Positions 39,587-64,000 of a stretch of DNA of 64,000 nt are shown piece by piece. The translations under genes were made by a program, and so were the position numbers. The notes beneath the pieces were generated by a model. It ran no database searches, had not been told where the DNA came from, and worked only from the letters and a program-made list of their open reading frames with translations. The DNA is taken from assembly GCF_019649055.1 (NCBI RefSeq), contig NW_026570449.1, forward strand, positions 1 to 64,000, given 5' to 3'. Each line of letters begins with the position of its first letter. Position 1 is the first letter of the stretch. Origin of the DNA: Paramacrobiotus metropolitanus. Taxonomy: Eukaryota > Tardigrada > Eutardigrada > Parachela > Macrobiotidae.

Positions 39587-40947
39587 GATTAACATAAATT
39601 TGGTTTTATTATCTTTCCTACAGTAGCCAACTTATTCAGCGTAAGCTGATGAAGATATCTTACCAGGCTAATGGAAAATTTTTTTGGTACATTTTGAAAA
39701 TTTTATACTGGTAATTGATTTTTGGGATTTTTCGCTTTTTGGTAGTTTTATGCAAAACTCTTTTGGGCACTTATTTGATTATTTCCGTGCGTATGACTAT
39801 GGGTAGAATTGGGGGACTTATTTTTTTTACATACAATGTGTTGCGTAAAACTGTTACATTAGATTGCAGTAGTCATTTATGTTGCCGTCCGTGGCCGTGA
39901 AAGGATGAATGCTGAGATAAAAACAAGTGACAAATTTGTACAGTATACAGAGCGCTTTTTGCAAATACTGTACCGTGCCTTTTTGGTTTATAGCATTATT
40001 TTTCATCGTGAAAGCGCAGGCGGCGACCTTTAGGAACGTTAATGTGGCTTTTATTCTTTTGTGCATCGCTGTCTTTTCCCGGCATTGCACATTAGCATTA
40101 GTAGTAAGTACTAGTCTCTTACGGGCGTAGAGGCCAGTTCAGAGAGCGTACTGTATACAGCAGCAGTGCGGTATTGTTCTGTGTGTCTGCTTGAGTACGC
40201 GACTCGCAGTCCGCGCAGTCTCCCAGCTGATCAGCAGTGATTGCCCTCACAAGTCAGTCAGAGGCAGCGATTTCTCAGATGGCTGCGAAATCTCGAATCT
40301 CCTCGCAATCTGCAATCTTTTATAAGTTTCTTTCGGACGCTTTTATCTCTTTTCCGTAATTCATTTAGTGCCTGCTTGGTTGTGCTCTTTTCTCTGGTCA
40401 TTGGGTTTTCGCATTTTGCTTTCTTCTTGACAGAACGTGATACTGAAGGATCGTGGAATACGATACGATTCTCTTTGTGGCCTTTCTTTAATTTCCATCC
40501 TAGACTGAAACCTTCCACCATAATTTTGATTGCTCTTCTGTGCTAAGTGATAGTGTGCAGCTGTAAGTTCGCATCTGGTGTGTTGGTGTCGGTGATATTA
40601 GTAATTGTTATTATGATTCTTGTTGTACCTGTATGGATCTGGCAGTGTCAGTAATAAACAACATGAGGACATCTCGATGTGGATTGTGTTCGATATCAGA
40701 GACATCATATCGTGTTTGATTGTTTCTTTTGAAATATTTTCATGTAAACAGTAAACCATAAACACATCGTTTCATGCGTTGTGCATAGTTAATGGTTGCA
40801 GTCTTGTAGATTACATAAGAACTTTTCTTTAGTAAACCTGTAAACGCTTTGGATGCTCTCACGATCAGGATCTCAAGCAAGACAGGTTTGGATCCGTGTT
40901 GTTGTTGCCAGTTAACGCGCACGGTAGCACGCCACTGACAGGACAGA

Positions 40948-43617
40948 ATGGGGAAACGCAGTTCGCGCAAGCAGAAGCCGTCTCATAAGAACCACAACAG
41001 CCGTCCGAAGAACGGGCAAAGCCAGCTTGCTCGCTCCTTTCAGCCTGGCGGATCGGACATTTTCTCCTGTGAACCATACGTGTACACGGTCAGTCCGCAG
41101 GATGCCCATCTGCGCTGTCATTGCTGTCTCAAGTTGCTGCCAGATGCCGAGCTGCGGCCGACGGAGTTCTCTTGCGGCTCCTGCAAATACTTTCGATACT
41201 GTGGAAAAGAATGCCAGGTAAAAATTGACTGCGCTTACTGCTTACAGCTTACTGGTCGGATTCGTTTGAATTTTCCGATTTCTTTTTGTATTTCTATTTA
41301 TTTTTGTTTTCATGAAATAACCTGGAGTACTCTTTCGCAAAACCGTGGAGAAGAATGGAGAGCGTAGATAATTGCTTGTGAATATTCACATAAGGGCGCT
41401 ATTATCATTATCAGTACCATGACACTGACCTTTTCCTGCACGAGTTTTTCTGCGCATTATCATTATTTTTATTGTTTGCAAATATGTTATATTTTACAGA
41501 ACAAAGACAAGCTGCGCCATCAGAACGAGTGTGCGTTGTGGAAGCGAATCAAGGATGCCGGTTTGGTGCCTAATGTGACATTTATCCTTGTGTTGCGGGC
41601 CGTTCTGGCGATGAAGGCAAGTTTCTGTCGTTAAGAGTAGGAATTCTTCTGTTGTGTGTACGTTAGGTGCTTGAATGCTTCCGTAATTTTTGCTGTCTTG
41701 ATGCAGCTATCGTCTCTTTGAACAAGAAATTTATTGGATTTTACGGTTACATCCTTGTAACTGCTGACGTAATTATGGTTTTATAATTCCTTTTTTGAGA
41801 GTGCAAAGTTAGTAAATAGAGAACAGCCAATATAATACACAGGATTTTCCTTGAAAGCGGTATAGAGCGGTGTTTTTGGGAAGAATTCGAACATGCATTT
41901 ACGTGGTGGCACTGAATCTCGTAGGATGCTGGACAGGAAAATGACTGGGAGCTTTTGAAATTTTCGGATCTCCTCTCTCACGTGGAAGTGCTGTTGAAGG
42001 ATGAGGAAGAAAAAGCCTTGGTCACTTCCACCAGAAAATCTCTTGCCAAGATCTTGAAGATGACAGAAAAGAACCTGCTGGATCCCGATAGTTTCCCGGA
42101 ATTGTACGGACGAATCCGCTTTAACGCCATGGCCATTTACGATACGGATGTTATACAGTCTCTGAAAGGGCACGGAATTTACAAACATTTTGCTTACCTG
42201 AAACATTCCTGTATGCCCAGTGCTTGTGCCATATTCGAAGGTGTCCGTCTGAAAGTTCGCGCTATGAAATATGTTCCGGATATATCGAAGGTAGCTGTAT
42301 TGTTGAAATAAATTCGCTATACATTTCAATTACCCCTGGTCGGTGGAAATCCTCGCAGGTAACGGTTTCCTTTGTGGACCAACTTTTGCCTCGAAGCTGT
42401 CGATGCAAGATCTTAATGGAAGAATATGATTGCGTTTGTGACTGCCAGCGGTGCTCCACACCGGGAACAGTAAGTTTTTAATACAACTGTTACATTTTGT
42501 ATTTTACTCTGGAGTTTATGAACGTTGACACAGGATGCTGAAATGTACGCACTGAGATGCCCACGAAAGAATTGTTCTGCCGTTATTCCTTCGGATCACC
42601 GTGCTCTGACCGAATGCGTGGCATGTGGTGCCAGGTTATACGACAACAGTGCATACAGTTCAGCATTGATTCTGATGGCTGAGTTTCCACTCCTGAAAAG
42701 CCAGTTGGCTAAACGAATTGGCAGCGTGACCGGTCCCGAAAACAGTTATCGTGTACTCTGCGAACTCAATACCGCAATGGAGAAGTACGACGTTCTCCAT
42801 TACAACAATCCTTATTTCTCAGCACTGATGCTGTTCATGGGGAACGTTTATTTTAAACGGCATGAATATTCTCAGGCAGCCGTTTGGGTGGAATTTGCTT
42901 TGGAGAGTTACCGGTAATTTACGTTAATACTTACTACTTTGTCCTATACACATTTACATACATTTTGCATACTTTGTTTAACACAGCACTGAATTTAGTT
43001 TCCTGCTTTTGGTTTACCAAACCTGACGTCACGGCGATCACCTTCTTCGTTTCTATGGATGTTTTTCGTTGTTCATTAGCAAATAAGAGGGAAAAAATAT
43101 TCTGCCGCACTAGTTTTCCGAAGCTTTGCTCTGGACTCTCCTTTTTTCTTTGGATATTTCTTATTAACTTCTGTTATTGTATTTGTTAACCGTGTTTGTT
43201 GACCATATCTCTTGCAGAAAATTGTTGGATGCCAATGATCCGCGGGTTGGGATGTTGCTCCTTAAAATTGCTGAAGCGCGGTATTTGGATTCATTGTTGG
43301 AAGGGCCACGCTTCGTTGCTACTTCGGACAAAGAGCGATTCGACCTTTCCGCACAAGAAGCCCGACGAGCACTGGAAATCGCATACGGCCCGGACAGTCC
43401 TTTGGTAACCAAGGCATTGAAGCTGGTGCATGCCAGCCGAACTCGTTTGCACCCTGGCAGAGTTAACTCATCGAAGGACTACTCAGAATCTGAAGACGAT
43501 GAAGAATGTTCGTGCGGTCGCTGTTCGACAAGCACTAAGGTTGAAGAGGAGAAGAATTATAAAGACTTCTTTGATGACCGAGATTTCTATGCGCGATCCA
43601 TGCGACAGGCTAATTAA
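40948..43617 (+). CDS. SMYD-family SET/MYND lysine methyltransferase
   Basis: Transfers methyl groups from S-adenosylmethionine to lysine of histones or other proteins. Exons 40948-41217, 41500-41616, 41925-42290 (start could be 41937), 42359-42469, 42534-42913, 43218-43617; 547 residues. A basic N-terminus is followed by the MYND zinc finger (CHCC, CGSC, CGKEC, then HQNEC after the first intron). The SET core has RFNAMAIYD, GIYKHFAYLKHSC (LNHSC in most relatives) and VRAMKYVPDISK, then VSFVDQLLPRSCR. Post-SET cysteines (CVCDCQRC) follow, then a TPR-like C-terminal domain and an acidic tail (SESEDDEE) with a further Cys cluster (CSCGRC). The second intron has a GC donor (AAG|GCAAGT). I cannot tell which SMYD paralogue it is. 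Confidence 0.93.
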
Positions 43618-44439: not shown

Positions 44440-47400
44440 TTATTGATTTTCCGCTGGTGCAGTTGGAACATCAGCCGTGACCTCTTGTGTTGCGGTTGGC
44501 GCAGCAGCTTCTCCTTCCGGCACGCGTTCCCCGTTTAGCCACCTGTCAAGAAGAAGCGCTAGCTAAGAATGATGTGTGTCCTATAAATTCTATCAACTCT
44601 TGATCCTACCAAGTGGTCATCAATCCTTTTCCCTGGAAACAATATGCACATAATCAGAAAATTATTATGCGCTACGATATATATACTGTTCATGTGCGGC
44701 TTTAAGTTGCTGATCACTTGAAATCTCCTGTTTTACGACAACATGAATAACATAATTTTGAATGCGCCTTTAAGCGCGCAGTTTGTGACAACATATATGA
44801 ACTGTGTGACATCTTTACAACTTGCAAATACACTCAATAATAATCGTGGTTAAACGTTGTTTTTGTTTGTTGTATGCGGTCACATACTTTGATCTCCACT
44901 TCTCCACGTAGTGTCAAATCAAATGTCGGGAAATCGTCCAGGATGGTTTTCAGATCAGGACTGACGTGAATCTTTAAGGCTGTTAATAAATTGAATACCC
45001 ATTTAGCACATTGCATCTATCAGTATAAGGCTGTAAATTTTATCAAACGCGCCTTCTCCGTGACTTTCCATTTTGTTCGCCGTATTGACCGTGTCTCCAA
45101 ACCTACCAGTTAAATGAAATTACTTGCAACACTTATTAAGGATATCCTTTAATTTCGTTATTAAATCTCGTCGAGAGCTTACAGGCAGTATCGAGGCATC
45201 TTTAATCCGACGACACCGGCAACTACAGGACCCGCATGTAGACCCATGCGTAGTCGAAGCTGCTCATTGGGTCGATGGCGGATCTTGAAGCGCATAATTC
45301 CGTCCAAGAGTTTCAGCGACATGCGAGCGATTTCGCGAGCATGGAGGTTTCCGTTGCGAATGGGCAGACCGCTCACGACCTACATTATAACTTATAATTC
45401 GCGTTGCAATAAATTAAAAAATTTATCAAAATTAACGCAAAAAGAGCAAATAATTTACCATGTAGGCATCACCGATGGTTTCCACCTGTCGTTGAACAAA
45501 GGGTTAAGTTGCATAAATAGTTTGTACTGAATTTAGTATGTAAAGTACCCACCTTATACACATCGAATGCATCCAGAATACTATCGAAAAGTGCTGTAAA
45601 ATAATTTTGATAAAGTTAATAGATAGATTTTGATTTTGATATTTTTGTAAGATAATTTTGATTGCAAACTGGAACCTTGTCAAACTACCCAAACTTACTG
45701 TAAAGGTCATTCAGAAGGTCGACCACTTGCATGGGTGTACTGGATGCACTGAGAGTGGTGAAGCCAACGATATCGCTGCAATCCAGAACAAGAATCAGCA
45801 TGTCCATATGCATTACGCAGTTTATAGCAAACAACGTAAGTTACATTTTTTCTGCAGAGCTTTCTTAATTAATCGCTGAACAACTGATCGTAAAAGTAAT
45901 GTAGGCTAATAAGCGCTATATACTGTCTTTCTGTACATGACTGGTGACCTTTTACGAGCTATCAAAAGATTTTACGTGATGGGTATACAAGCTAAACTGG
46001 TATGAGCATATCCATAACCCCAGTGAACAACCCACCACATTGCATGCCAGATACTGTGAACTGTTATAATTTTACGTTTGACTTTACCTGAAGTATATAG
46101 AGACTTTCTCGAAGGCTTCTGGTTCGACCGATTTGCCTTGCTTGAGTCTCTCCGCCACAGACCTGACGATGTAATATTCCGTGTGAAACAACATAAATTT
46201 CGATAATTATGTAAAGTAAAGCATGTTTAGAATTTCCTTTATGATACAATTTCTTTCAAGTGCCTTAATCGTATCAGCCGTACTTAGGTAACACTTGATA
46301 AAGAAGCTCCTCAGATTTTCGCTTTTCTTCGAGGAAAGCCTCCGTTCTTTCCATAACCAGTGCTTCTAGATCGGTTGCGTAGGTTTCCATGCGTTTTAAT
46401 AAGTTATCCATCAGATTGCCCGTTTCTACGCCTGGAATCTTTTTGAACTGCGAGCGAATCTCTTTAAATGTCGGTCGCTTTTCGGGCTCTTCGCTCCACG
46501 AGTGCTCCATAATAGCATAGAGCTCGGGTGGGCAAGCGTCTTTCGGAACATGCGGACGCAGCGGGGGATTGGTGCCCTTTATGACTTCGGTAATGATGGC
46601 TGCAACGTAATTAGCATGCTATATATGTTTAGCCGTATAAGCTGATACCTCTGTGTGTGCTCACTACGCTGGGTTCGGTTTAACGCAGCAATATCGTCAA
46701 TAACATGAAAAAACCGGGCGGCTGTTTTTATATCACATGCCCTTTATTGAATATTAATAACGGATGCAAAACAGTAGTCTGCCTCTCTTCCCAGGATTAT
46801 CATCTATCTAACAGGCGGACATCAATGCTGCGATCGCAATATTGAGTATCGATCGCGACCATAACGCAGTGCAATTTTTACCGACATGTCATTGTAGGTT
46901 TTACAAGCGCACGCCTCAAGTGCACTCCATCCTGCTTGTTATAACAGCTTGTAATGAAATATTGCTTACCATACGGATCCATAGGTAAACGTTTCACATC
47001 CGGTGATCCGAAGGGTTCGCAACGCAGGATGATTTCTTGCACTATGATACCGAAGCTGTAAACATCGCCTGCAAAATGAAATTAGACCCCAAAATTAGCC
47101 GGTATCCAGCAGAAATACAAACCGGAGGTAATGGAATAATAATAACTTGGAATGGAAGTAATAATCTGTAGGCTAGGCTTATTGAGGTAAATATGACGGT
47201 CAGCCAATAGCAATAATTCGAGCCTAGACTGACGCACGGACTATGCTGCCAAAACTGCAATGACTATTAAATTTCATGTTATTAAAAAATACATATGATG
47301 TAATTAATTCAGTTTTCGACTGAACCGCGCATCAAACGTGAATATATCTAATTACATAAATTTTATACTTTAATAATTGCCTGCGCCTGTGGTTATTATG

Positions 47401-50400
47401 CCAACGCCGTACCGGCTTTAGTTCCTTTAGGTGGCATCGGGGCGCGAAGATGTTCCGGTGCGCGCCACAAAAGTCTGAAGTAATCGGATTTGTTATCTCC
47501 CTCCTTGTTACTAACAAACGGCTGCAGGAAAGCCAATCCATAATCGGTAATTTTCAGGACGAATCGACTGTCGATAACGCAGTTAGAGCTGGTTAAATTT
47601 CCATGGGATTCGATAGGGCTGTCGTGCAGATATGTCATGCCCTGTATTCATGGAAAAGGTTATGCGCTAGCATTACGCTATTGTTCGATCCAAATTAAAT
47701 TTTGCGGTCCAGAGGAAAAATTCTGGCTCGCTCTTTTTATAATGCACGCATTAGCGAAACCAGGTCTTCTTAATAATTTTTTATAAACACGCACAGAGAT
47801 AACATCATTGGTCAAGGAAAATCGGAACGGCCAGTCCAGCTTCAGAGCATCATTTTCCATCACATCGGATAAACTTCCTTTGGTACAGTATTCGGTCAGG
47901 ATTTGCACTTGGTTATCTTCGATGCAGATACCAACGAAACGATTAATATTTTCATGAACCATGTCGCGCAGCTGTAAAACAAGAAATATTATCAAAAACT
48001 GATAATTCGGCTTCGGATTATTGATCTACCTTTTTGATTTCTTTCAGTTCGTTTCGAGAAGGATGGAACCGACGTGTGGTTTCCATTTTCTTTACTGCTA
48101 CCGTTTTTCCTTTATATGAAGCAATCTTAGCAAACACCTGAGTTTTTCCCACAGAACTGGCATGGGATGTGTTGTCAGCCGTTTTCTAAACAATTAGATT
48201 TCGATGCAAAATACAGGCCTCCAAGTGACCGCACGAGTTTCATGAATGTCTGCAATATGCCTCGTACCAAACTCAGCTTGCTGAGAGACTGGCTGGAAAC
48301 TTTCATGGATGCCTGATTTAGTTCCTCCTTTTCAACTCGCCACCAGGGATCGCTCAGAGCTGACTCCAGTTTAATTTTGCTGTAATAATACGGTACCATT
48401 TAAGCATTTTAATCAAATAAAAAGCTAGTAAGAAACTTCTGCTTAGTAAGTATTAAGTACCGGTAAATCAATAAGGTCGCTATGGCGCAAATAAATACCA
48501 AGCCTACAACGGAACTTAGGGCAATGGCTAAAATCCGGCGTTGTTCTGAAAAGAAAATTAGTTGTAATCGAAGTAGCAACATTTTCTGATAACTATTGGC
48601 TATAAGCGAATCTCAGTAATTACCAATCTCGCACTCCTGTTTGATGCCGCGGTAGCCGCATTTAGGTTCGTTCGGAGGTGGGGAATCGCGGTTATACCAG
48701 ATAATTGGGCGGATGCTGCCATCAGCATCACGACTACTTTGCAACACTTTGCGACTCGCAGAGTACTCCATAACCGGCTAAAAATGAAACAGTCGAAAGA
48801 TGAAAATCGATAGTATTAAAATTTTATTTATGTTCGATGTGCTTTTCTCGCGCCTCAAACTAATTGTAAGGGAAAACAGACGTCTGCATACGCATGTGTA
48901 CATGTAATGCCATTAAACAAAACAATAAATTTTTATTTTTTTATTATTTTTTAAGTCTGTTTAAATATTTATTGTTAAGGTCACTCTCTACCCTAAAAAT
49001 GCCGTTTGAATCCATTTGATTCAGCGCCCAGTCCGAATCTCGGTCGCCATTACTGTTGATGACGATATCTTTGCCTAGAATGGTGAATGTTCGATTCCAC
49101 ATCAACTTGGTCAAACTGGCGCCGTCATTGGGATTTCCGCCGGCTGCTATAGTTTGGTTTAGCACCTGTAAGCCATATTTATGTAAGGTCGAGAATGGAA
49201 TGAAAGGAGAAATCAATAGGCAATATATCGATCCTTCTTGCTGCTGCGCTGCGGGATCTGTCCTAATCACGAGAGAACCGACGCGGCAACAGGAACCGAT
49301 GATAAAAACACAGCATTGGATTGCAAATTGCGGGTCTCACTGTATTACCTGTCCGTAAATGGCGAGCGCGTAATAGTACGACACGGCGAATGGGTTAACC
49401 TTTCAAATTAAAGAAAAAGCATGCTCAAAGGCAGTACGCGGGTGGCATGATGAATTTAATTATCAATAATAGACAGCACCGTGTGATATAATTATTGTTC
49501 AGGCTACAACAGCCTGCCACTATCCCGCTTACTTCCTCTCCCGGGGCATATGTATAGTCATATCTTTCTTTGGATAGCCGTTTCACTTCATTGGTGAAAT
49601 TGAGGTATTCTGGTGAATCCGCGCTGCGTAGCGATATTATGAACAAGGAACGATATGCTGTTCTAGCGTCCTGATCAACACAACAAGGTCACACACTTGA
49701 AAACATCGCATCGCAGCTTACAACATTACGGTATTTGATACTAAATAGTAAGCCAACGCTAGCCATTCCGGATTATAATTCCAAACATAGAAAGTATTCG
49801 ACAGTTTTTGTCAAATAGGGAGACTGCATTGCTTTTCAGTTTGCTTGACTAACGCTTACCACATCGCGTTTATCGGTATCCCCGGTATTCCAGGATATAT
49901 TGCCGAAAAAGGTCGCGCTTGGATACAGTTCAAATGCAAAATATACCTGTAATACGTAAGTTTAAAAGCGGGGCTACTATAAAAATTAAACTGGTTTCTG
50001 AACTGCAGAACTCTCAATTAGCAAGACTTAACTTTGCCACAAAAGAATAAAATTTGGTTGTAAAGGTCATCGGACTCACGAAGGTAGATTTTCGTTTTTG
50101 TACTTACATATTCACCATCCGTCATTTGTTTATCAAAAGCCGCCAGCTAAAAATCAAAAAATTACTTTGAGTATCGCATATTAAGATTAAGATAATACGT
50201 CCCGATCCGAAGGCATGATTTCGCGCGATCGTGCAGCGAGCAGAAACGGATACAGATTTCGAGCACCCAGCGGATCGCTTGGCGATTGACCAGAACTGAT
50301 TAATTCAAAATGGCAATAACTTTATTCAGCCATCACGCACGACAACGTTTTTGGTATCAAAAATCTTCCCAAATATTTCTTCATCTTTTGACGCATGGTT

Positions 50401-52722
50401 CGCAAACTTTATCCAGAACCAGATCCCGTATTACCAGGATCTGGTTTTGGATGAAATCTCCTGTTATAGCAGTATCTGGTTCATGAGAGATACCAACCAA
50501 AGCTTCAAAAGATTAAGAAACATTTGGGAAGGTTTTTGATACCAAAAACGTTGTCGCGCATGATGTCTGAATAATGTTATTGCCATTTTGAATTAATCAG
50601 TTCTGGTCAATCGCCAAGCGATCCGCTGGGTGCTCGAAATCTGTATCCGTTTCTGCTCGCTGCACGATCGCACGAAATCATGCCTTCGGATCGGGCGTAA
50701 TCAAACAATATAAAAGTCTCAGTATTCTGCTGGCAATAGCTAAATTCAGTTTACCATGATCGGCCGAATGCGATTGCCATACGCAATGATGATGACCACT
50801 AAAAACATTATAATTTAGAATTATAACATCAGGACAAAGAAATACTTTTTAACTTACATTATATCGGAAACTATTTTGTTTCTTGTTTCTCAGTTACAAT
50901 TTTTTTAAGACTGGCTATGGACAAACTACTGAGCATTAAAAGCACTGAGCACCTTCTCAGTACTGAAAGAACCTTCTGAGCACTGAAAGAATAATACAAT
51001 ACAATACATATCTATATATCTAACAATTAAATGTGCTATAATTCGCATGTTCATATAATCGTCGAGCGCGTGTTCGCGGATCTCTTCTAGATCTGCATGC
51101 CTTTTTTATACAGTAACCATTGTAGCTGAGACCTGCAGTTTGGTTTACAAACCTCTGGCAATGGATCTAATCTCTTCCAGATAGTGTTTTACGTTGTCCT
51201 TATCACTGGCGTTCACATAGAAACGACTGGCACTAACGTTATACGTCAGACGAAGTGTATCGAATAATGCCGTGCACATCGGCACATAAATAGCTAAAAT
51301 ATCGTTGGCATCGTCGCATAAAATTCCCACAGTGCTATAGCCATAGGTATTCAATAATTTGTAAAAGAACTGGTTGAGATCTTCCTGAATGTAGGGAGAA
51401 AGCCTTGTCAGCGTAGGGTAACGCTTTTTGTTTGAAACCGCTGTATCTCCGGCAATCCTAGAAGGATTGATGCAGTTAAAGTTGGTTGCACAATTGTGAT
51501 ACACTTGGCTGTAATACAGCAATACCATAAGCCAGCTTAAACTTACGTGATTAGCATTTGTTTATTCCACGCTGCAAAAGAACACGCTCATTAGTTCAGA
51601 AAAACTTTGTGCTTTTTCTGCTTTCCAATAATATTGCACAGGATCCAAAATTTTCCCGTTTCTTAAGCACAGCATACGAATTTTAAGTGTTATATTTGCA
51701 TACCAGTCTGCTAATGACAGATGCGGCTCATGAGATTACGCCGCGGTTGTCTAATTTACTGAAGAGCACCCGCAATTCAACAACCTAATCACCTTTATAC
51801 TTCTTTAAATTAGGAAATTACTTTAAATTAGAGAAACGGATTAAATCATTTAGTCATAAATTATGCGAATAGACAGTAGGTGAACTCCTTTGAAACTGTT
51901 CTTAAATTTATGTATGCGTTCAGTATGCCAAATTTTTCGTTGCCTATGCGATGTGCTATAACGAAAAAATGTGAGATTTGTAATCGACTAGATATCCATT
52001 TCGTTACTTCCGGTCACTTGTATAAATCGGCTTACTTCAATTTTCTGTTTTCAACAAATAGAACGGGAAAAAATCGGGAAAGCATCTCTGTAAAATTATA
52101 AGTCATAAAAAAACAATTGCACGAAAAAATGCAAATGTAAAAAAATAAATTAAAAGTGTAAAAAGTATGTTAAAAATAATTAAAAATATTGTCATCCCTA
52201 AACTGTCAAGTTTGAGCCTTTTTCTGTATAACGTCGGGTTGTAATACATTTGCGATGCATAAATTACTATATATTTGTTTACTTTTTGGCTTACCTCTAG
52301 CTAAATGGCCAACAGATGCTGCTGCTGTTGGACACCCTGCAAAAAACAACTTATCAAAAAATAAATGTTCGAAAATAACTATGTTGTACATTACCTGGAC
52401 CAAACATTCCCATAACTGGATTTCCTTGGGCTTCCCGATAATAATAGCGAGTAGCCCAGAAAGTTGCCTTCTGATCCATCATGTCGCAAGTGGTCACATT
52501 TTTATCATATATCGGCACCTTGGTTACGTTGATAACCGAACTGTACCGTCGCATCTCTTCCTCTCCTTTATCAAGCAACGCACCGGCAATGCTTAAACTC
52601 GTTGTTGTCTTATTTCCCCATAGAATGAATTCTACCAGGGCCACGTCCACTGTGGCTGCTGCGTAGCTGATTACAAGCAAAACGGAAAGAAGAACGACAG
52701 ATGACCTTTGCGTTGGTTCCAT
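44440..52722 (-). CDS. Receptor guanylyl cyclase: sensor cassette 1 plus shared signalling body
   Basis: Single-pass receptor that makes cGMP from GTP. Twenty-seven exons give 1,081 residues. Cassette 1: 52395-52722, 52295-52336, 51547-51571, 51153-51457. Shared body: 50755-50798, 50108-50146, 49860-49946, 49533-49670, 49349-49399, 48992-49165, 48624-48777, 48461-48545, 48268-48379, 48030-48185, 47795-47971, 47413-47641, 46970-47068, 46284-46599, 46088-46162, 45699-45775, 45553-45593, 45459-45485, 45183-45379, 45053-45102, 44888-44979, 44610-44632, 44440-44542. Signal peptide [20 protein letters not shown]; ligand-binding domain; membrane helix (~466-489); pseudokinase with [15 protein letters not shown] (catalytic Asp lost) and DYG; dimerisation coiled coil; cyclase with [18 protein letters not shown] (guanine-selecting Glu), RYCLFGDTVN (Cys) and LRGEVEIK. 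Exons of 23, 25 and 27 bases occur. The 45053 exon uses a GC donor. Confidence 0.95.
50201..50695. mobile_element. Foldback MITE-like element in an intron of the guanylyl cyclase body
   Basis: Two inverted arms of about 200 bases (50201-50400 and 50496-50695) are near-identical in the outer 170 bases. The ends are CCCGATCCGAAGGCATGATT and its complement. A CGT triplet flanks both ends (50198-50200 and 50696-50698), a possible 3-bp target duplication. It has no coding capacity and carries internal smaller palindromes around CCAGAACCAGATC. It sits in the 608-base intron between the first and second exons of the shared body, on no exon boundary. The long arms fit a non-autonomous DNA transposon; the superfamily is not assignable by eye. 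Confidence 0.85.
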
Positions 52723-53682
52723 TTTGAATGGAACTACTTAACCGATTTGATAGAAGGCTGGGTCTTCGGCTGTAAGCTTAAGATTCTCAGCAGCAGCTGT
52801 AGCGATCATGAAGATTCAGCATCATATTTGTGCAGGTGCTTGATTATCTATTGACTGCTCGTATGCAGGCAGCAAGCGGCGACCTAGCACACCAACTTGG
52901 CAATGCGCTCTGAGTTGGAGCTGAGAATTGATTTTTCCAACGCTAAGGGTGTTGTTTCTGGAAATGAACACAGCATTCGCGCACCAGTACCTGCCACGGC
53001 ACCTTGTTGGGAAAATTGTTTACGCCCTGTTTCCGCTTCCGACTATATCGTATACGGATGTAATATACGTATGTACGTATGCGATGTCGGCCTCACAAGC
53101 CAGGTTCAGGTGCAACTCGAAACCGTTGATGTTGGCCATCGGAATATTGGTAATAACGGTATCCGTGAACGCGCCGATCGCAGTATACAAATTACCCATT
53201 GCTTAAAAGGGCTAATACTTAAAAGGGCATGACCATGATCAGATGTAAGGTATGCCGATAAAAATCAATACTCGTATTCCTTACAACCCTTATTACACAA
53301 ACTGTACATATCAAATTTTAAGCTACGGTTGCTCACTATAAGCAGCTAGCCTAAACCTTATCCCAACAAATGCTACCGTGAGAATTTAAACCGATACCAC
53401 AAGAACCGCGCTGGAAAAATACGGTACACTGGGAGTGGGAAGTACAGCTTTAAAGAGTACCTCTGTGTTATCCTGTGCGAAATCGGTATGCAGTATGCCG
53501 ATTCCCCACAGGATAACAGAGTCCTGTGCGGTAAGTTATCCTTTTATTACTGATCGATTACACATATTTTCAGTACACGATTACATCCACAATTACACGA
53601 TTATATCCACAGTATTTTCAGAGAGGAATTGTCTTATAGCTAGACCCATTCCACAGTTTGTCTAAAAGCAATTAAAGTTTAC
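52723..53682. promoter_or_regulatory. Gap between cassettes 1 and 2: putative promoter region of cassette 1
   Basis: This 960-base stretch lies between the start codon of cassette 1 and the last exon of cassette 2. No membrane, pseudokinase or cyclase exon is in it; it is far too short for the roughly 2.5 kb of coding needed. It contains the long imperfect hairpin at 53461-53521. If cassette 1 has its own transcription start, the promoter should be here; no clear core element can be named. Confidence 0.45.
53461..53521. repeat. Long imperfect hairpin between sensor cassettes
   Basis: CTCTGTGTTATCCTGTG on the left matches, as a reverse complement with a 2-base bulge and few mismatches, the right side ending ACAGGATAACAGAG. 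Pairing continues inwards through AATCGGTATG / CATGCCGATT-like bases almost to the centre, giving a stem of about 30 pairs. It may be a small foldback insertion, a structured RNA element or a dyad regulatory site. Confidence 0.75.
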
Positions 53683-54937
53683 CTCGGGCTTGTGAGCGAA
53701 CTTCCTCTAAGTAGCGGTTGGTACTAGCGAGATCGCTGCCGTTAACGTAGTATCGGTTAGCGCTGATGTTGTGTCTCAGCCGCAGATCATCGAAAATTCC
53801 CGTACACATCGGTACGTAAATATACAGCTGTGCGTCATTTGCGTCATCACACAGCACTCCGACAGTCGTAAATTTGAAAGCCTTTAAGATTTCCACAACA
53901 AATTTTGTCAGATCCTCTTGTATATACGGCGATAATCTCGTTAATGTTGGGTAACGTGTTTCTGTGGAACATTAGTTTTTTTACCAAACGGTACAAAAAA
54001 CACAGCAATGAGTGGGTACCCTTACTGGCAGAAACTGCAGCGTCACCAGCTACTCTAAATAACAAAACAGCAGAACATTAAACCATGGAACAGTTCGTTT
54101 TGAAAACAGCACAAAATACCCTTCAGGTCAACTTCAAATATTCAGAAAAAAATATATAAAAATTGAACGAACTTACGCTATAAGCATCTGCTTATTCCAT
54201 GCTACAAGCAAAACAGGTTTGACACATGCCAGATGACCTTTCTTATATGTAAGTATGTACAATGACCGATATTCTGTACCTCGAGCCAAATGACCCACAG
54301 ATGCGGCAGCGGTCGGACATCCTAAGCAATTTACAAATCGTCTGAGACTGTAACATAAGCAGTAACCTTCATCCGCACGATTAACAATCTGCTGCTGTGA
54401 CTCTTACTTTTTTAAGCCAAATTTTCTAGTTTAATTAATACTTTAAATACAATATATATTAGTTCCCAAAAATTTTGAAATGACCTCCGCTTCTTTTCAG
54501 CGCTTAATCTTTTCATTCGTACCTGGTCCAAATAAACCCATTACTGGATTGCCCACAGCTTGCCTGTAGAAATACCGAGTAGCCCAAAATGTGGCTTTTT
54601 GGTCCATCATCTCACAGGTTGTCACGTTAGGATCCGAAATGCGCACTTTAGAAAAATTCATAGCATTCCCATACTTTGAAGAGATTTCTCTTACACCAAA
54701 CTCAAAGATTGCCCCCGAAAATGCATCGCTAGTGGTAGTTCGATTTCCCACCAACACAAATTCCACAATAGCCACGTCAAAACCGTTTGCAAAGGGAGAA
54801 ATATATGCAAAGGTCACGAACACAAATATCACAGTTGCATATGCCTTAGCCATTCTTTGCATATGTGGCATAGCTGTAAAGCCAGCTAGCCACACTTTTA
54901 GCATACAGGAATTACCAGCTTGTAGATATTGTTGCAC
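53683..54937 (-). CDS. Guanylyl cyclase sensor cassette 2 (alternative N-terminal half)
   Basis: Encodes a signal peptide and the first half of a receptor guanylyl cyclase ligand-binding domain, closely similar to cassette 1. Exons 54523-54937, 54280-54321, 54177-54201, 54026-54054, 53683-53961. Shared landmarks: [61 protein letters not shown]. The last exon ends CGA-G before a GTAAAC donor: phase 1, the same as cassette 1 and compatible with the shared body acceptor at 50798. It has one extra intron (53962-54025) that splits what is one exon in cassettes 1 and 3. The first Met of the frame is at 54937; the Met at 54853, before a hydrophobic run (AYATVIFVFVTFAY), is the better signal-peptide start. 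There is no body of its own downstream. It is either an alternative first part of the 44440-50798 body or a partial duplicate. Confidence 0.85.
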
Positions 54938-55749
54938 GAAGCTTCCGAAGCACGTTCACTGCATAAGTCTTTTTGTGGCACTTGAAATGCATTTTCTGAC
55001 AACGCGCTCCCTTTAAATATGCCCGGCTAGTTCTGGGCCTCCTCACCTGCTGGATATCGTATTGTTTGCTGATCAACAGCAGCAGTTTTTAAAACAGGAT
55101 ACCAGCAGGAAACAGACTTTACTTGTCCATACATATCAGCTAACACTGTTTACCTTTGCTGCAGATGTGTAATCTTGCGAGTGATTTGCCATAGGCTCAC
55201 GATAGCATTTGTAGAATACATTACTGCAGTTCTCAAATGTTTTTTAAGTAACTGTCTACTTAATTGGGATAATTATGTGAATGCGATTTTTCTTTTCTTT
55301 TTTGCTGCATCGCCTGACGGTGTGGGTTTTACCGGTATCGGTGTCAACAAGCTGGCAGGAACATGAAATTATTTTCATAGAATTACTCGTATGTTATTGC
55401 TGTACGATCGATCGTATTCCATAGATCTGTGCAGCGCAGACTTTGTCTTAAAACTTAAGTAGTAAAGTTTGGTTTAGTAATATTAAAGTTTATACCTGTT
55501 TGTACTCTGGATATGACCTAGTTAATATGTATGTACACATTACCTACGAAACGTTAACACAACTGTGAATGAAACTTGCTATAAAACGTTTGTGAAGAGG
55601 AAAGCGTTTCGTTGCTCGGAGCGAATACACGAATTAGTAATTACAGCAATCAGCCATTCAGGAGAACTGTGCAATCATGGCGGACCACGCTAGAACATTT
55701 TCTGATGTTGTGATAATTTGCTAAGTAAGGGAACGAATTAGTTTCTCAC
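54938..55749. promoter_or_regulatory. Gap between cassettes 2 and 3: putative promoter region of cassette 2
   Basis: About 810 bases without any guanylyl cyclase body exon. If cassette 2 is independently transcribed, its promoter is here. I see no clear core promoter motif or repeat. Confidence 0.4.
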
Positions 55750-57248
55750 CTCGACTGTTGCGTTGGATTTCCTTGAGTTTATCATCCAGATCGGCCGCGC
55801 TGAAGTTAGCCTGTGGGTTGAATGCCGTCCGCCAGGCATTCACGTTTTTTAGGCGCAATGTATCAAACATATACCGGCAACTAATGTAGTAAGATGGGAA
55901 GACGCCACTTTCCAGAGAATCATCACATAGACAACTGACATTTGTCCAGTGAAAATATTTCAGGATAACCAACATCAAATCAACAGCTTGGTGGTTCTGG
56001 TATGGCGAAAGTCGGATCAGTGTCGGGAATCGTTTTTTGTCTTGAAGTCCAAGAGCGGTGTCTATTCCCAAACTGTTATTTCCATCGAAAACAAATCGTG
56101 AGGTGGAACATGAATAAATTCAACTCGATTACTCTGTAATCCAACTTACTTTGTAAAAAAAGGCACGTTCCAGGCTGCAATCAGCAATATAATTAAAGTC
56201 TGTTAGTTTGAAACATCTACTGTACAAAAAGTTTCGTTTCCTCATCCGCACATGTACGAGTACTACACTGAAGCGTGCAGTAAGCTAGCTAGTAGCAGAT
56301 ACCTCTTGCTAAATGACCCAAACTGGCAACGGCTCCTCCACAACCTAAAAAGATAGTACTAATAAGTCCTGGTTACAACTGTTGGAATTTTACCACAGAT
56401 TTACAAATGCTTGCATGCTTATTTATATGAAATTGATTCTGTCGTTAACAAACCCATATACTGCTGGGCAAAGAACGTAAGCGACTACTACGAGTAGCTA
56501 ATTACAGTCCAAACAATATTGTCGGCGTTGCACCTCGTAAGCGGCTCGTTTTTTTATCTATATGGGGGATACAGGTACAAACCACCAACTATACAGACTA
56601 TCTTGGCCGTTAAAAATTAATGTGCACAATGAACAAGAAGACAGTTATTCACAATTCACAGGCAATAAGGCTGTAGGAGCTACCCTGACGCAGTTGTTAT
56701 GCACTGCCATACTTTACGGCACTTGGGTTTGACCATTTCCGGTCCGAATCGAAATCCTCAAAGGTGAATACGGAAGTACATTAACGTTTTCCTACTGTTT
56801 TTGCTTAAAAACACATAATGCCTCAAAATTTTGGTAATGATAACAAAATTTTTCTACCTGGTCCAAGAAACACCAACGTGGAGCCTTTTCCTCCTTGCTC
56901 GTAAAAGAATTTCGATGCAAAAAAGGGACCTCGCGCCTCCAAATTGGAACATGATGTTCCAGGTGTCTCGCCACCGGGTATGGAAATAGCGTGTGAAAAG
57001 TTCCCGAATTCGCCGTATGTGGTTTGGAGAGCATCCACTCCATAATCCATAACCGCCGCGGAAGACCTGAACCCGAATTCCGTTGTAGATCCATTATTGA
57101 TAACCGTTAATAAGACGATGTTCAGTGATGTGGCATTTTTCCCGGCAATGTGGTTACCGCAGTACAACAACACAGCCGAAACGAAAATAGCCCGCCTTAA
57201 TTTTGCATCTTTCTGTGAGTGTAAGTTCCATTGGGGCAATAAGCACAT
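55750..57248 (-). CDS. Guanylyl cyclase sensor cassette 3 (diverged alternative N-terminal half)
   Basis: The most diverged of the three sensor cassettes. Exons 56858-57248, 56303-56344, 56150-56174, 55750-56072. The sizes of the second and third exons (42 and 25 bases) and all junction phases equal those of cassettes 1 and 2. Landmarks: signal-like RRAIFVSAVLLYCG, FLGPG at the first junction, CGGAVASLGHLAR, AWNVPFFT, KKRFPTLIRLSPYQ, SCLCDDS. It ends CGA-G before a strong GTGAGA donor, phase 1. The [12 protein letters not shown] block of cassettes 1 and 2 is replaced by NLEARGPFFASKF, so ligand or dimer contacts should differ. Open frames and intact splice sites argue against a long-dead pseudogene. 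Confidence 0.83.
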
Positions 57249-59771
57249 TGCCGGAATTTGTATCCAGACCGTTCTGTAATTATTAGCAGTTAAACAACCG
57301 ATACTGCAACAAGTTTAAACCGATGTATGATAGTTTTGACACTGGCTGAGCTAATTAATGATACAGCGTTCAATCCGAAAAACTTGAACATTTCCAGGGA
57401 AATCGCAGAATTTCAAACTACTGCACCATTCCAGTCCATGTGTAGCGACATACAAAAAGCGTTTTCATTCTGTTTAATTATTACATTGCATATAGTTTCA
57501 ACTAATTGTAAAAATTAAATAATATAATTAATTCAGTTTTTAAATTTAAAACAAAAATGTTAATCGCACTAAACGCTGTAGCAGCCGTTTTACCAATTAC
57601 TTACTTATCGAAATCAAGTACCGAAATTGTTCTCTACGGTCTTGTACCTTTTCGAAATGTACTGACGTACGAAGTCAATGCGAGGGCACATTCATGGTTC
57701 CATCATCATCTGGGTGCCTGCAATATATTTCTTCTCTGTTTTCTGTAAAAAGAGCTAACCAAAAAACTAAGAGCTAGTCGATAGTATGGATCTAAAGGGA
57801 AACATACCGAGCATTTGCCGGCCTGGCGCGTTGCCTGTGGTTCAAATGTCGAACGATCATTTTGTGAATTTATCCTGTACTATTATGTACACACACTAGG
57901 AATATTTTTGCGTGTGCGGTTAGCAAACAAAGTAGCACAATTATCGTATACCATGGAATATCGCATAGGAATATATTGCAAAACAACCGGTCACAACAGA
58001 GCCTGGAATATATTTGGTTTTGCGTACCAAGAGGCATCTTATAGTTAAACGCACACGATACGATGCCTTACTGCGGTCACGCAAGCTCATAATAATCAAT
58101 ACAGATATTTTCCAATCACTTGGAACTCTCGCGCATCGGATACAATTTACCTGTCGGCTTCGCCTAGCTAATGCCATTGCAAACAAGCACTTCATTCTTT
58201 CGTCGTGTTGAATTTGCATTTTTTATGTCCTGGGGTTTTTGCATAATTGGAAAATAAGTATGTTCCTTCTTATGACCACGTCATTGTACAATGAACATGT
58301 GCACGTTTAATTGAAGTGTAGACAGGAATACTGCAAGCTGAGTCTTTTTAAATGTCGACCTTGACCATTCCATTTCATCTTCTCCACGCAAGGAACTACA
58401 GTGGAACATATTTGTCTTAATACCCGTAATCGTGTAGAAATATTGTACTCTATCTATCTGACTATCTGTACATTTTAATACATTTTTAATTCATTTTATT
58501 ACATTTTTAGGAGAATGGCGGCGTGACTAGAATAAATACAGCCATTACACGAGCACGCGCCTGCAGTTTTTGTTCCCATTTGATAAAATTAAGTACGTAC
58601 TTCTAGCGCATGATGACTATTATCATTTTTGTGATATTTTGTATTGGCAATCTTGTTTTATTGCGAACTCGCATCTGCGCGTTGGTTAATCCGCTATCGC
58701 AATGGTCAAGTTCAAGCATTATAGAACATATAAAGTACGTGCAAGAATTCATTAAAACCTATCAAATTTTTATCCAAAGTGCGATTTTGTCCCCCAATCA
58801 GACTGGAATCTATTGGCTTCAATCTTTAGATGGAACGCCGCAATTTCTGGCCAGCATAATTTCGATTAGATGTGAAAGAATGCGTCTGTTATTATGTCCT
58901 ACTCTGTCTGCCACACAAGACTGACCACAGCACACTGTCAGTATGCCCAGTTGTCCACACTGAGACGCTTGGGCTAAATTGAGGGGATGTATCATTTGCG
59001 CCCGTCTCTCAGCTTCGTATTCCGTGTGGTTGGTTTATGAACTTTGGGCTTGTGGAAGAGAAAGGGAAGCCAGCCAAATAGAGCTGTCAAATATACCCGT
59101 GATTATTATGTGGATGAGCATTCGCTGACCAGAAAATTTTTATTTCGGCAAGCAGCAAGCTACATCTTTTTGATTCGTTTTAAATCCAGCTATCCATCGC
59201 AACTATACCGTTCCTCTTCGGGTCAGCGCGTCCGAATTAACCTTGTACAAGGTAGGCAGAACTTTAACATTAGAACGAAACTATTTTCACTGCAAGATTG
59301 AGTGTATATCTTGTATATAAAATTTTTTAAAGAATACTATCGAAACTTAGCTCAGTCAATGTTGTTAGTGCTTAACTTAATCGAGTGATATTAATGTCAA
59401 ATTGATGTTTTCTATGGTATAATTCAATGATTATCTGATTTGGGAAGGTAGCTGACATCTTAGAACGCTCCAAATGATCTTTACGCATCATGACGCCGCC
59501 GCCATTTTGTGACACTATAAAATTCTAAACGATCAAAGCGGTGTAATTTTGCCGGTAATTCAAGGCTTTTGTTCAAGAATTGTGCTGCTTTATAGCGGTT
59601 TATTTTTCGTAAAATCGTTTTAGTGCAGCAAACCAGAAAATATAAAGAATAAGAATTAATAGATTTGAATATCTCGACACTCGTGGATCTTCTCAGTATA
59701 GGCCTACACGCAATATTTGATAGTATTCGTATGTAAAAATCACTGAAATTGCGATAATTTGCAGCGCAACA
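57249..59771. other. Divergent intergenic region between guanylyl cyclase cassette 3 and caveolin
   Basis: The two neighbours are transcribed away from each other, so promoters of both should be here. I looked for a fourth cassette on the minus strand (GHLAR-type exon, 25-base exon) and found none. An unassigned 104-codon plus frame (58610-58924) with a hydrophobic start matches no family I know. Confidence 0.45.
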
Positions 59772-62008
59772 ATGGACAGTAAAGCTGATCAGCCACTATT
59801 AGAGCCCACTCAGCGCCATCCCAGCTACATCCACGCCGAGACGAAGGAATTCTATGAAAAGGATCCGAAAACCGTGGAGCACATTGAACATATTGAGCTG
59901 CATGATGCCGAAACACCGCTGACCACTGCTGACGGAGCACAAGGGGAAACGCTCCAGGTTACGACCACCGAAACCACCACCGACATCAGAACCGGTAAAA
60001 CCAAGAACAAGACCGGCAAGCATGCGGCACAGCATACACCGCTGACCATCGGCCTGAATGTGCTGGATCGGGATGAAAAGAATATTAATGGCCAAGTCCA
60101 TGTGAGTACTGCTATTAGCTGTAATAAACGTGGCTTTCTCATAATCGACATTGGCATGCATATAAGCGTGAGTCGGCGTGACTATATGCTCGCACTTGTA
60201 ATGCGGTACACCGCTTTTCCCATTACTTCAACAACAAAAGATAAGTAGAAACTGCAAAGAATCGCTTAGTGAAAACCCTTTTAAATTTACGGCTGCATAA
60301 TAATATTTCGTGAAATGTTTGTCTGAAAAATTTTTAACCCAATGCTTTGTATATTTCATACCATATGCAGGCATTAGGCAGCAAAATAGTGGAGACAAGA
60401 ACGTCACACGTTACAACTGTAACTTTTAGGGGCATAAAAAATTTGTTACCAATTGTGTATGTTTATTTATTTGGGGTTCTTGCATTTTCCAAACCGGAAA
60501 ATTTCTAGCAAAATTTTAACAAACAAGAATTCGTAAAACGGCCAATGACATTAGATTTTATTTGTACCCGAGGGTTGTGAATCAATGTGCTTAAGTGGTA
60601 ACCTGGCCTTGTCAGCAGATTTATTCCGATAGTCAACTGTCCAAGACTCCAAGACCAGCGTAAACATAAGCACATAAATTACTACATTTTGTAATATTAT
60701 TCTATTTGGTTGTGATCTTTTGGGGCTGAATGTTCTAAACTGACCATGCACATGAATCCATTAGTGCAACATCTGGCGTACGTTTCTAAATTCAGACGAT
60801 ACTAATCCAGCATATAAACAGATGGATATGTATTGTACATATCCATCTGTATGTGCAATGCGTATCGATGTATTGCACATAATGCACATTAATCTTATTA
60901 ATGTAACATGTATCGGGTAACTTTCAAAATTCTGAATAGACTAGACTGATATGTCGCCAAAGTATATTTATCTCGAAAACATGAAAAATCCTGAAGCGAT
61001 TTGCCCACCATGAAGACGTTATCTTAATACACAAATTCGTGAAAACTTTGAAACCACACAAGTTACACATGACCTTTATCGTCTTCTGCCACCTGACAAA
61101 ATTTCATTCACGGTCTTCGCTTGACTGATCGCTGGTCCATTGAAACGGTCTTACAGTTTATTTTGGTTAACTGTTACCGATTCGGTTTGGTAATCTGGTC
61201 GATCGATTGCTAATTGTTAAAAATCGTCGGTCGGGGTTTCGTTGATAATAATTGCAAAGCATTAAGTGACTTTATTAACTATATGGGTTTTCCAGATTAT
61301 GTTCGATGATGTTCTCGCTGAGCCGGATGGGACGCACGGCTTCGAGCCAGTATGGCGTGGAACATTCGTCATGTTCCACTGGACCAAGCTCTGGATGTAC
61401 CGGCTGCTTGTGGCTATTTTCGCGCTACCGCTGGCATTCGTTTGGGGTGCGTAAATGTGAACATTTGAACGTGCAGTCCAGTGTGTAAAATAAATAGCGA
61501 TCCAGAAATTTTGTCATTGAATAGCGATCCAGAAATTTTATCATTGGTAAATCAGACTCAGATCGTGTGGTGTTGCGTTTTGGTAACGTGGAGTGGGTTT
61601 TTCGTGACCTTTTACGATATTTTTCAGGTCTGTTGTTCGCGTTGGTTATTGCCATCAACAACTATTTCTGCACACCATTCTTCAAATTGTTCTCCATTGT
61701 TTTCTTCTGGATTGGACGTGTAAGTATTCGGCTTAGCATAAAGAAAGTGCTGTAGCTTTTATTTGGTAATGTAACTAATGTTTATGTTGTAGATCTGGGG
61801 CACAGTTTTCCGGGAGGTCTTCTACCCTGTCTTCGATTCGTTCGGACGCTGCTTTTCTGGCATTCGGGTCGCTTATGGCGGCAATACGAAAACCTTCGAT
61901 GGACCATTCCGCGAAGCAGTGAACAACGTGGGAACCAACACGACGTGCGGAAAACAGCCCACAACTGGTCCATACGGAGCTGGCAGCAATGCCCCAACTT
62001 GGGCCTAA
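59772..62008 (+). CDS. Caveolin with long N-terminal extension
   Basis: Membrane scaffolding protein of caveolae-like domains; a hairpin-inserted protein with both ends in the cytosol. Exons 59772-60101, 61296-61446, 61628-61719, 61793-62008; 262 residues. Caveolin signatures: FDDVLAEPDGTHGF (family FEDVIAEP), then the scaffolding/intramembrane part (TKLWMYRLLVAIFALPLAFV) and LLFALVIAINNYFCTPFFKL. Exon 4 (IWGTVFREVFYPVFDSFGRC) is the C-terminal membrane-attachment region. The first 110 residues, all of exon 1, are charged and Thr-rich (TTTETTTD) and are longer than in vertebrate caveolins of about 150-180 residues. The C-terminus adds about 40 Gly/Thr/Asn-rich residues. Start: the first ATG of the frame, preceded by CAACA. 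Confidence 0.93.
60819..60849. repeat. Perfect 14-bp hairpin with 3-base loop in caveolin intron 1
   Basis: CAGATGGATATGTA, loop TTG, then the exact complement (60836-60849). Directly after it a second, weaker inverted pair (TGTGCAAT ... ATTGCACA) follows. Both lie within the 1.2-kb first intron. No transcript or transposon signature is visible. Confidence 0.8.
61491..61547 (+). repeat. Short direct repeat in a caveolin intron
   Basis: AATAGCGATCCAGAAATTTT followed by G/A-TCATTG occurs twice in tandem, with one base difference. The unit is about 28 bp, inside the 181-base second intron. It is probably a small slip duplication. Confidence 0.85.
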
Positions 62009-62617
62009 AGACCGCTGGCAGACATTCGGAATCGCTCATATTCAGTAATACATGTATCCTTGCGCAACCTTCAGAGCAGCTGGTTAACTTCAAATGTTTA
62101 AAATGCCATTTTTTATTTTCATGGTGTAAGTGTACCGTGCACGTAATGGTAACGTTTATAAAAAATCATTGATGTCTGGTATCAGTTTATTATAATCACT
62201 GTGTTGGAGCAGGAATACTCAAAAGTCAAACCGTTTTTTATGGGATGACATCAGTTTGTTAAGTTCAAAGTTTTTTGTGGAACATAAAGTAATAATGGAA
62301 AAAATTAAGAAATCGTTTGTTCAGTCAAGGGAGCATTCGCTAGACATGGCGAGACTTTAAAGCACGTAGCACAACAGTTGCAAATTTGAGCGATTTAAAA
62401 CGGAAGAAGACATGGGCGGATACAAATCATTCAATTACTATAAGAATGCAACAGCGCATAAGTCAAGACCCGCATTCCGACGTCGAAATTTTGTCAGCAT
62501 ATATTACAAAGCCTAGGCGCAAATAGCCAAACACAACTGCAAAGACAGGCAGGAACTTTATCCACATAAAATAGGCCAGAGAAGAAAATCACGCCAGAAA
62601 TTCTAGGCAAGTCGGAC
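62009..62617. other. Convergent 3' region between caveolin and PCNA
   Basis: Six hundred bases between two convergent stop codons. It holds the two 3' UTRs; I see no other gene or repeat. Confidence 0.45.
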
Positions 62618-63989: not shown

Positions 63990-64000
63990 CTGAAAAACAA

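Follow-up and report, generated by a model that had tools for sequence, protein, structure and literature searches.

Three tandem 5' cassettes precede a single receptor guanylyl cyclase body in the tardigrade Paramacrobiotus metropolitanus

The locus described here lies on contig NW_026570449.1 of the tardigrade Paramacrobiotus metropolitanus (C229 in our own numbering of contigs), in a 64,000-nucleotide (nt) stretch that we call the window, and it was compared with the whole genome of 169.8 Mb in 533 contigs; the assembly is described as comprising 170 Mbp and as made with Canu (PMC11191345). In our rebuilt exon models, transcription of the minus strand meets three homologous 5' coding units, cassettes 3, 2 and 1 in that order, and then one receptor guanylyl cyclase body of 23 exons (Table 1). 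A preliminary description, made from the letters of this DNA, had proposed that the one body is served by all three cassettes. Its limits for cassettes 1 and 3 hold; cassette 2 is intact as well, but starts at 54904, the first ATG of its open frame, rather than at 54937, and contains an additional 64-nt intron that had been overlooked.

The three units share the features expected of tandem 5' cassettes placed before one constant region. Each has its own ATG, with an in-frame stop 18 nt (cassette 1), 54 nt (cassette 2) or 69 nt (cassette 3) upstream of it, and each exits in phase 1 after an arginine codon at a usable donor. The acceptor of the first body exon, B1, fits each of them, as had been predicted, and the joined products read as single open frames of 1081, 1100 and 1108 residues, each closed by one stop at its end, in line with the 1,080-1,110 residues or so given earlier. 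In the chain formed by cassette 1 and the body, Pfam recognizes ANF_receptor (121 bits), kinase (142 bits) and Guanylate_cyc (225 bits) domains; together with the transmembrane segment, after which the kinase homology domain, a linker and the guanylyl cyclase domain follow in that order, these make up the domain set of a receptor guanylyl cyclase. Taken alone, cassettes 2 and 3 match PF01094 at 50.7 and 52 bits, which bears out the earlier statement that each cassette holds the first half of a ligand-binding domain.

Table 1. Features of the locus on contig NW_026570449.1, in window coordinates (C1 to C3, cassettes 1 to 3)
Feature	Position	Strand	Details
Cassette 3 (C3), first in transcription order	57248-55750	-	exons 57248-56858, 56344-56303, 56174-56150, 56072-55750
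C3 product	55750..57248	-	260 residues, signal-peptide-like start (by eye), N-terminal half of ANF_receptor, donor GTGAGA
Gap C3-C2 (to C2 ATG)	54905..55749	-	845 nt; TATTTAA 115 nt 5' of C2 ATG
Cassette 2 (C2)	54904-53683	-	exons 54904-54523, 54321-54280, 54201-54177, 54054-54026, 53961-53683
C2 product	53683..54904	-	252 residues, signal-peptide-like start (by eye), donor GTAAAC
Gap C2-C1	52723..53682	-	960 nt; single AATAAA at 53548
Cassette 1 (C1), adjoining body	52722-51153	-	exons 52722-52395, 52336-52295, 51571-51547, 51457-51153
C1 product	51153..52722	-	233 residues, signal-peptide-like start (by eye), donor GTTTGT (weak)
Shared body, 23 exons	44440..50798	-	stop codon ends at 44440
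First body exon (B1)	50755..50798	-	acceptor TTTTTAG ending at 50799, phase 1, target common to the three cassette donors
Body part: remainder of ligand-binding domain	50798-48624	-	
Body part: transmembrane segment	48545-48461	-	24-residue hydrophobic stretch, by eye
Palindromic repeat of about 500 bp, MITE-like (miniature inverted-repeat transposable element)	50200..50701	.	inside first body intron

Both gaps between the cassettes are shorter than 1 kb and, on the coding strand, hold no match to the exons of the second lobe of the ligand-binding domain (lobe 2) or to membrane, kinase or cyclase exons at the thresholds used; this, too, had been described correctly. One match on the opposite strand, 33% to a 17-residue exon, was taken as chance. 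Among the matches listed by scored searches there is no second body on the contig, in agreement with the single downstream body of the preliminary description. Bodies belonging to cassettes 2 or 3 might have been lost or collapsed in the assembly, a concern raised from the start, and the contig offers some reason for it: it carries a 20-kb inverted repeat whose second arm reaches the contig edge just past cassette 2, and identical copies could collapse. However, that arm keeps the spacing of cassettes 3 and 2 without a body between them and extends 217 nt beyond the cassette 2 donor, no near-identical other body is among the matches listed from the 169.8-Mb assembly, and the nearest bodies, on contigs C163 and C79, are 59-92% identical in their kinase and cyclase exons and come with a first lobe (lobe 1) of their own. 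We regard an assembly error of this kind as very improbable.

The repeat itself occupies the last 20.4 kb of the contig (98602-118984), an inverted copy of 74000-53466 at 96% identity; the left arm was compared up to 74000, and the repeat may be longer. Of the 292 substitutions between the arms (149 of them transitions), most lie in the 61-74 kb part. The 53-60 kb part has 9 mismatches, with 37 bases missing against 1 extra, and because mismatches are so few there and the indels are biased towards deletion, we do not read the broken cassette 2 frame in the copy as a pseudogene. A fold-back artefact was considered and dropped after wider comparison, since arms that match over at least 20 kb carry this many substitutions, and no simple palindrome centre was found when one was sought at 82-91 kb. 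The inverted repeat appears to be at least partly real or haplotypic.

Searches with cassette 1 and with lobe 2 found close relatives on contigs C8, C15, C29, C132, C233, C367, C163 and C79, where 18 stretches were read; this set leaves aside more distant lobe-1 matches, for example on C54, C260, C77, C43, C14 and C104. The last lobe-1 exon of these siblings ends at a GT in phase 1 in all 21 cases, after arginine in 19 and after lysine in 2, and it is followed by lobe-2 exons through the sixth body exon (B6) in 20 of the 21; in the remaining one (C8 1000196) B1 and B2 alone follow. One further sibling, at the edge of contig C233, was left out of this last count. The 13 sibling genes compared have a B1 exon homologous to that of the present locus. 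Unlike the 21 siblings read, cassettes 2 and 3 have no lobe-2 exons after them, and on this comparison their orphan state is specific to the locus among the relatives read.

Many of the relatives belong to a tandemly arranged family on contigs C8, C132, C233, C367, C29 and C15, which comprises at least 16 ectodomain copies (lobe 1 plus lobe 2) resembling natriuretic receptors; for these we found no convincing transmembrane, kinase or cyclase exon match, only short weak ones. In some, the frame is broken or the stretch read contains no first exon, and haplotypic duplication may explain some copies. Their frame often stops soon past the juxtamembrane cysteines, and they are possibly secreted binding proteins; the same early stop occurs in the receptor cyclases on C163 and C79, where a donor ends the exon, so that the stop alone proves nothing about the ectodomain copies. 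In three of the copies (C8a, C8b and C132) another exon may be present. Contigs C163 and C79 carry four copies that are whole or partial receptor cyclases, with their own lobe 1. In the repeats of contig C233, two different first exons precede one second exon (1108-1427 with 676-978; 5826-6092 with 5412-5626, in coordinates of the stretch read), which would be a smaller case of the cassette layout; minor breaks of the frame in some C233 units may stem from assembly errors. The tandem ectodomain family suggests from where the cassettes may have come.

Several lines of evidence indicate that the cassettes are real coding sequence under selection. The homologous phase is kept at 9 of 10 cassette-internal junctions, the tenth being the extra intron of cassette 2 (donor GTAAGG); the stretch flanking that intron stays at 16 residues, equal to cassette 1, and by this comparison cassette 2 has gained the intron with length and frame kept. 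All three cassettes share four cysteines, to which cassette 3 adds three. Exon 2 (42 nt) encodes an identical 13 residues in cassettes 1 and 2 with nine codons differing, all of them silently (counted by eye). By the Nei-Gojobori method (NG86), nonsynonymous divergence (dN) between cassettes 1 and 2 is 0.31 with synonymous divergence (dS) beyond estimation, and between cassettes 1 and 3 dN is 0.80 and dS 2.76. In a codon branch test on 14 of the 18 aligned sequences and 227 codons, fixing omega at 1 costs 22.9 log-likelihood (lnL) units for cassette 2, 6.4 for cassette 3 and 7.4 for cassette 1 (2 delta lnL 45.9, 12.8 and 14.8); under a second, less likely topology, tested for cassettes 2 and 3 only, the costs are 51.0 and 11.3 (2 delta lnL 102.0 and 22.5). 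The tree omits C29b, which has frame breaks, and also C233b, the C8 1468836 copy, C15b, C163b and the C79 20-kb copy. The branch tests were run without a known-pseudogene control, and saturation at synonymous sites means that no reliance can be placed on the omega values as such. On these fits, neutrality is rejected for cassettes 2 and 3.

These results bear on the idea that cassettes 2 and 3 are decaying, unused leftovers of tandem genes whose 3' parts were deleted, lying next to an ordinary receptor cyclase that begins with cassette 1. Tandem arrays of the ectodomain family with truncated members do exist in this genome, cassette 3 is very divergent, and the cassette 2 copy in the inverted repeat has small frame-breaking deletions, though these resemble unpolished read errors. 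Against such decay, the frames of both cassettes are intact, none of their splice sites is missing and the fits reject omega = 1 in each case, a result that would nevertheless be compatible with past selection followed by very recent loss. We consider leftovers of this sort quite unlikely. Anatomy and selection together support the view that three alternative 5' coding units have been maintained ahead of one body.

Whether cassettes 2 and 3 are spliced onward is best judged from their last donors. Against a matrix derived from the body's 21 GT donors, which themselves score 4.5-10.3 bits, the donors of cassettes 2 and 3 reach 7.2 and 5.3 bits, both inside the body range; donors as good as these occur at 0.15% and 0.41% of minus-strand positions, respectively, and both stand at the ancestral place. 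Their in-phase partners are B1 or exon 2 of a later cassette. Donor quality is, in our view, the strongest sequence argument that cassettes 2 and 3 are spliced to something downstream. The alternative is that the two are independent short genes giving secreted half-ectodomains, for example decoys, with the body used by cassette 1 only; they would end just past the last donor or at a poly(A) site in a gap. Consistent with this, read-through past the last donor meets a stop after 3 codons in cassette 2 and 9 in cassette 3 (2 in cassette 1), an AATAAA is present in the gap between cassettes 2 and 1, the genome contains the ectodomain copies without detected cyclase exons, and the C8 1000196 copy has lobe 1 and two lobe-2 exons only. 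Nothing in such short genes, however, would keep good phase-1 donors at the homologous place after synonymous saturation. Moreover, AATAAA and ATTAAA were looked for in the gap between cassettes 3 and 2 and neither is there, and the cassette ends within the second lobe, as placed by alignment to 1dp4 with what we take to be the lobe limits, and not at a domain edge. Short independent genes seem unlikely to us.

We can present a rough proposal for how the locus might work: a single gene for a receptor guanylyl cyclase would contain three 5' cassettes in tandem. By analogy with the chelicerate sDscam genes, each cassette would have a separate transcription start, and in each transcript the cap-proximal cassette would be spliced from its last donor to the common B1 acceptor. 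The result would be one body of membrane segment, kinase homology domain and cyclase carrying three different N-terminal halves of the ligand-binding domain, and the three products would differ in ligand and feed the same cyclic GMP (cGMP) output. Exclusion could follow from donor strength, the good distal donors of cassettes 2 and 3 beating the weak donor of cassette 1, such that in a transcript started at either of them the cassette 1 block would leave with the intron; we regard this rule as plausible.

Alignment of the ectodomain to that of natriuretic peptide receptor A (NPR-A, also known as GC-A; 1dp4, E 5e-40) places the junction between cassette and body at NPR-A 208/209. The preliminary description had the cassettes supply different membrane-distal lobes, but each spans more than that lobe, the equivalent of NPR-A up to residue 208. 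Contacts in NPR-A crystals agree with the range obtained by docking. In a computational docking study, contacts of human NPR-A are given at 59-192 (PMC9699598), every one within the part that corresponds to the cassette, which would accordingly determine most of the contact with the ligand. Swapping cassettes would thus replace the greater part of the region that faces the hormone, leaving the remainder of the fold and the enzyme to the body.

Several observations weigh against this proposal. The cassette 1 donor, GTTTGT, scores 0.3 bits, a value equalled or exceeded by 41% of the GT sites on the strand, and it alone has a T at +3 among the three cassette donors and 21 sibling donors; one of the 18 sibling donors scored is lower still (-1.2) and two are near 1, and a weak donor at this place, not being unique, may be without significance. 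B1 has an acceptor of middling strength (2.9-5.3 bits), and the acceptor of cassette 1 exon 2 is stronger (11.1-13.6 bits), nearer, and in phase for cassettes 2 and 3, so that chimeras may be favoured. All three of these (cassettes 3-2, 3-1 and 2-1) are in frame, and with such competing internal acceptors exclusion need not be clean. Upstream of the cassettes we found no promoter motif that they share, the top ten upstream 8-mers containing no sequence from cassette 2 or 3, and the only promoter-like signal is the TATTTAA before cassette 2. Truncated relatives exist (C8 1000196-1001915, and the extra first exons in C233), which means that orphan 5' parts also arise as debris. Cassette 3 sits on a long branch, whose length hit the set bound in the fits with cassette 2 at omega = 1, and the inverted repeat carries second copies of cassettes 3 and 2, so the assembly here is not simple. 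Finally, the docking study also gives NPR-B contacts at 338-419 (PMC9699598), in the body-equivalent part.

At 51143-51152, the GTTTGT of cassette 1 runs into AAAC, which yields a GTAAAC like that of cassette 2 four nt downstream and out of frame; this may reflect a small insertion.

Taking both sides together, we think it likely that the shared body is used by all three cassettes as proposed. The original idea of three receptors on one engine gains partial support from anatomy and selection; the phase 1 exits after arginine at GTTTGT, GTAAAC and GTGAGA are all as first described, but good donor strength holds for cassettes 2 and 3 and not for cassette 1, the acceptors compete, and a common promoter signal did not emerge. 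More tentatively, and as something we would call possible rather than probable, the locus may hold three old, selected cassettes exchanged by promoter and splice choice and ordered by donor strength so that the distal overrides the proximal, one cGMP engine reading three ligands, with mixed dimers possible. If this is true, peptide or sensory receptors would be diversified here by a new route, and a single cell could contain mixed dimers of the three receptor forms. Such a locus would also provide a natural set of domain swaps with which ligand specificity could be mapped.

Other features of the window can be noted briefly. The body contains a GC-AG intron (45052-44980) within the conserved cyclase domain, and the palindromic repeat in its first intron matches about 29 places in the genome at 70-96% identity. 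The neighbours, at 59700-64000 and 40939-41367, are a caveolin gene (plus strand), the 3' part of a PCNA gene (minus strand) and a MYND-finger exon (plus strand) that scores just below the Pfam cut-off.

Receptor cyclases are otherwise, to our knowledge, organized as one gene with one ectodomain. GC-A shows the same order of ANF_receptor, transmembrane segment, kinase homology domain and cyclase as the present locus, and has one N-terminal half per gene. Closer to hand, the receptor cyclases on contigs C163 and C79 share the series of exons of our locus through lobe 2, kinase and cyclase, and identity in the cyclase exons is 72-92% (64% for a single exon of the truncated C79 copy); unlike our locus, they have one N-terminal half each and no extra cassette among the matches listed. 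The preliminary description knew of no guanylyl cyclase locus of this kind, and we found none among the titles and opening lines of abstracts listed by searches of open-access literature on tardigrade cyclases, receptor cyclases with alternative first exons, alternative promoters, gcy-28 isoforms, mutually exclusive exons and soluble receptor ectodomains, which is not proof of absence. Within the literature searched, shared use of one body, which we think likely here, would be new for receptor cyclases.

The locus had first been likened to UGT1A and the protocadherins, and alternative 5' parts on one constant 3' part are indeed common to all of these. The variable parts of UGT1A are single large first exons. 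The same is described for the variable part of the vertebrate clustered protocadherins (PMC4835542), and if the variable unit has to be a single first exon the likeness fails, as the cassettes here have four or five exons each and competing internal acceptors. Chelicerate sDscam genes, which encode Ig-domain receptors of the Dscam family, are described as having from 2 to at least 40 cassettes of 2-4 exons, each after a promoter and joined to constant exons, with cross-cassette forms found (PMC4835542). The present locus resembles sDscam in having several 5' cassettes of more than one exon in tandem, each with a start of its own and an upstream in-frame stop, in its one constant membrane part, and in cassette-internal exons that are in frame with their neighbours, making cross-cassette isoforms possible. 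It differs in being a guanylyl cyclase receptor with three cassettes, in being known from genomic sequence, where transcripts and promoters have been shown for sDscam, and in placing the cassette boundary inside the ligand-binding domain. The layout of sDscam thus appears closer than that of UGT1A or the protocadherins and, if the proposal is true, the locus would bring the sDscam type of multi-exon cassette plan to a signalling enzyme.

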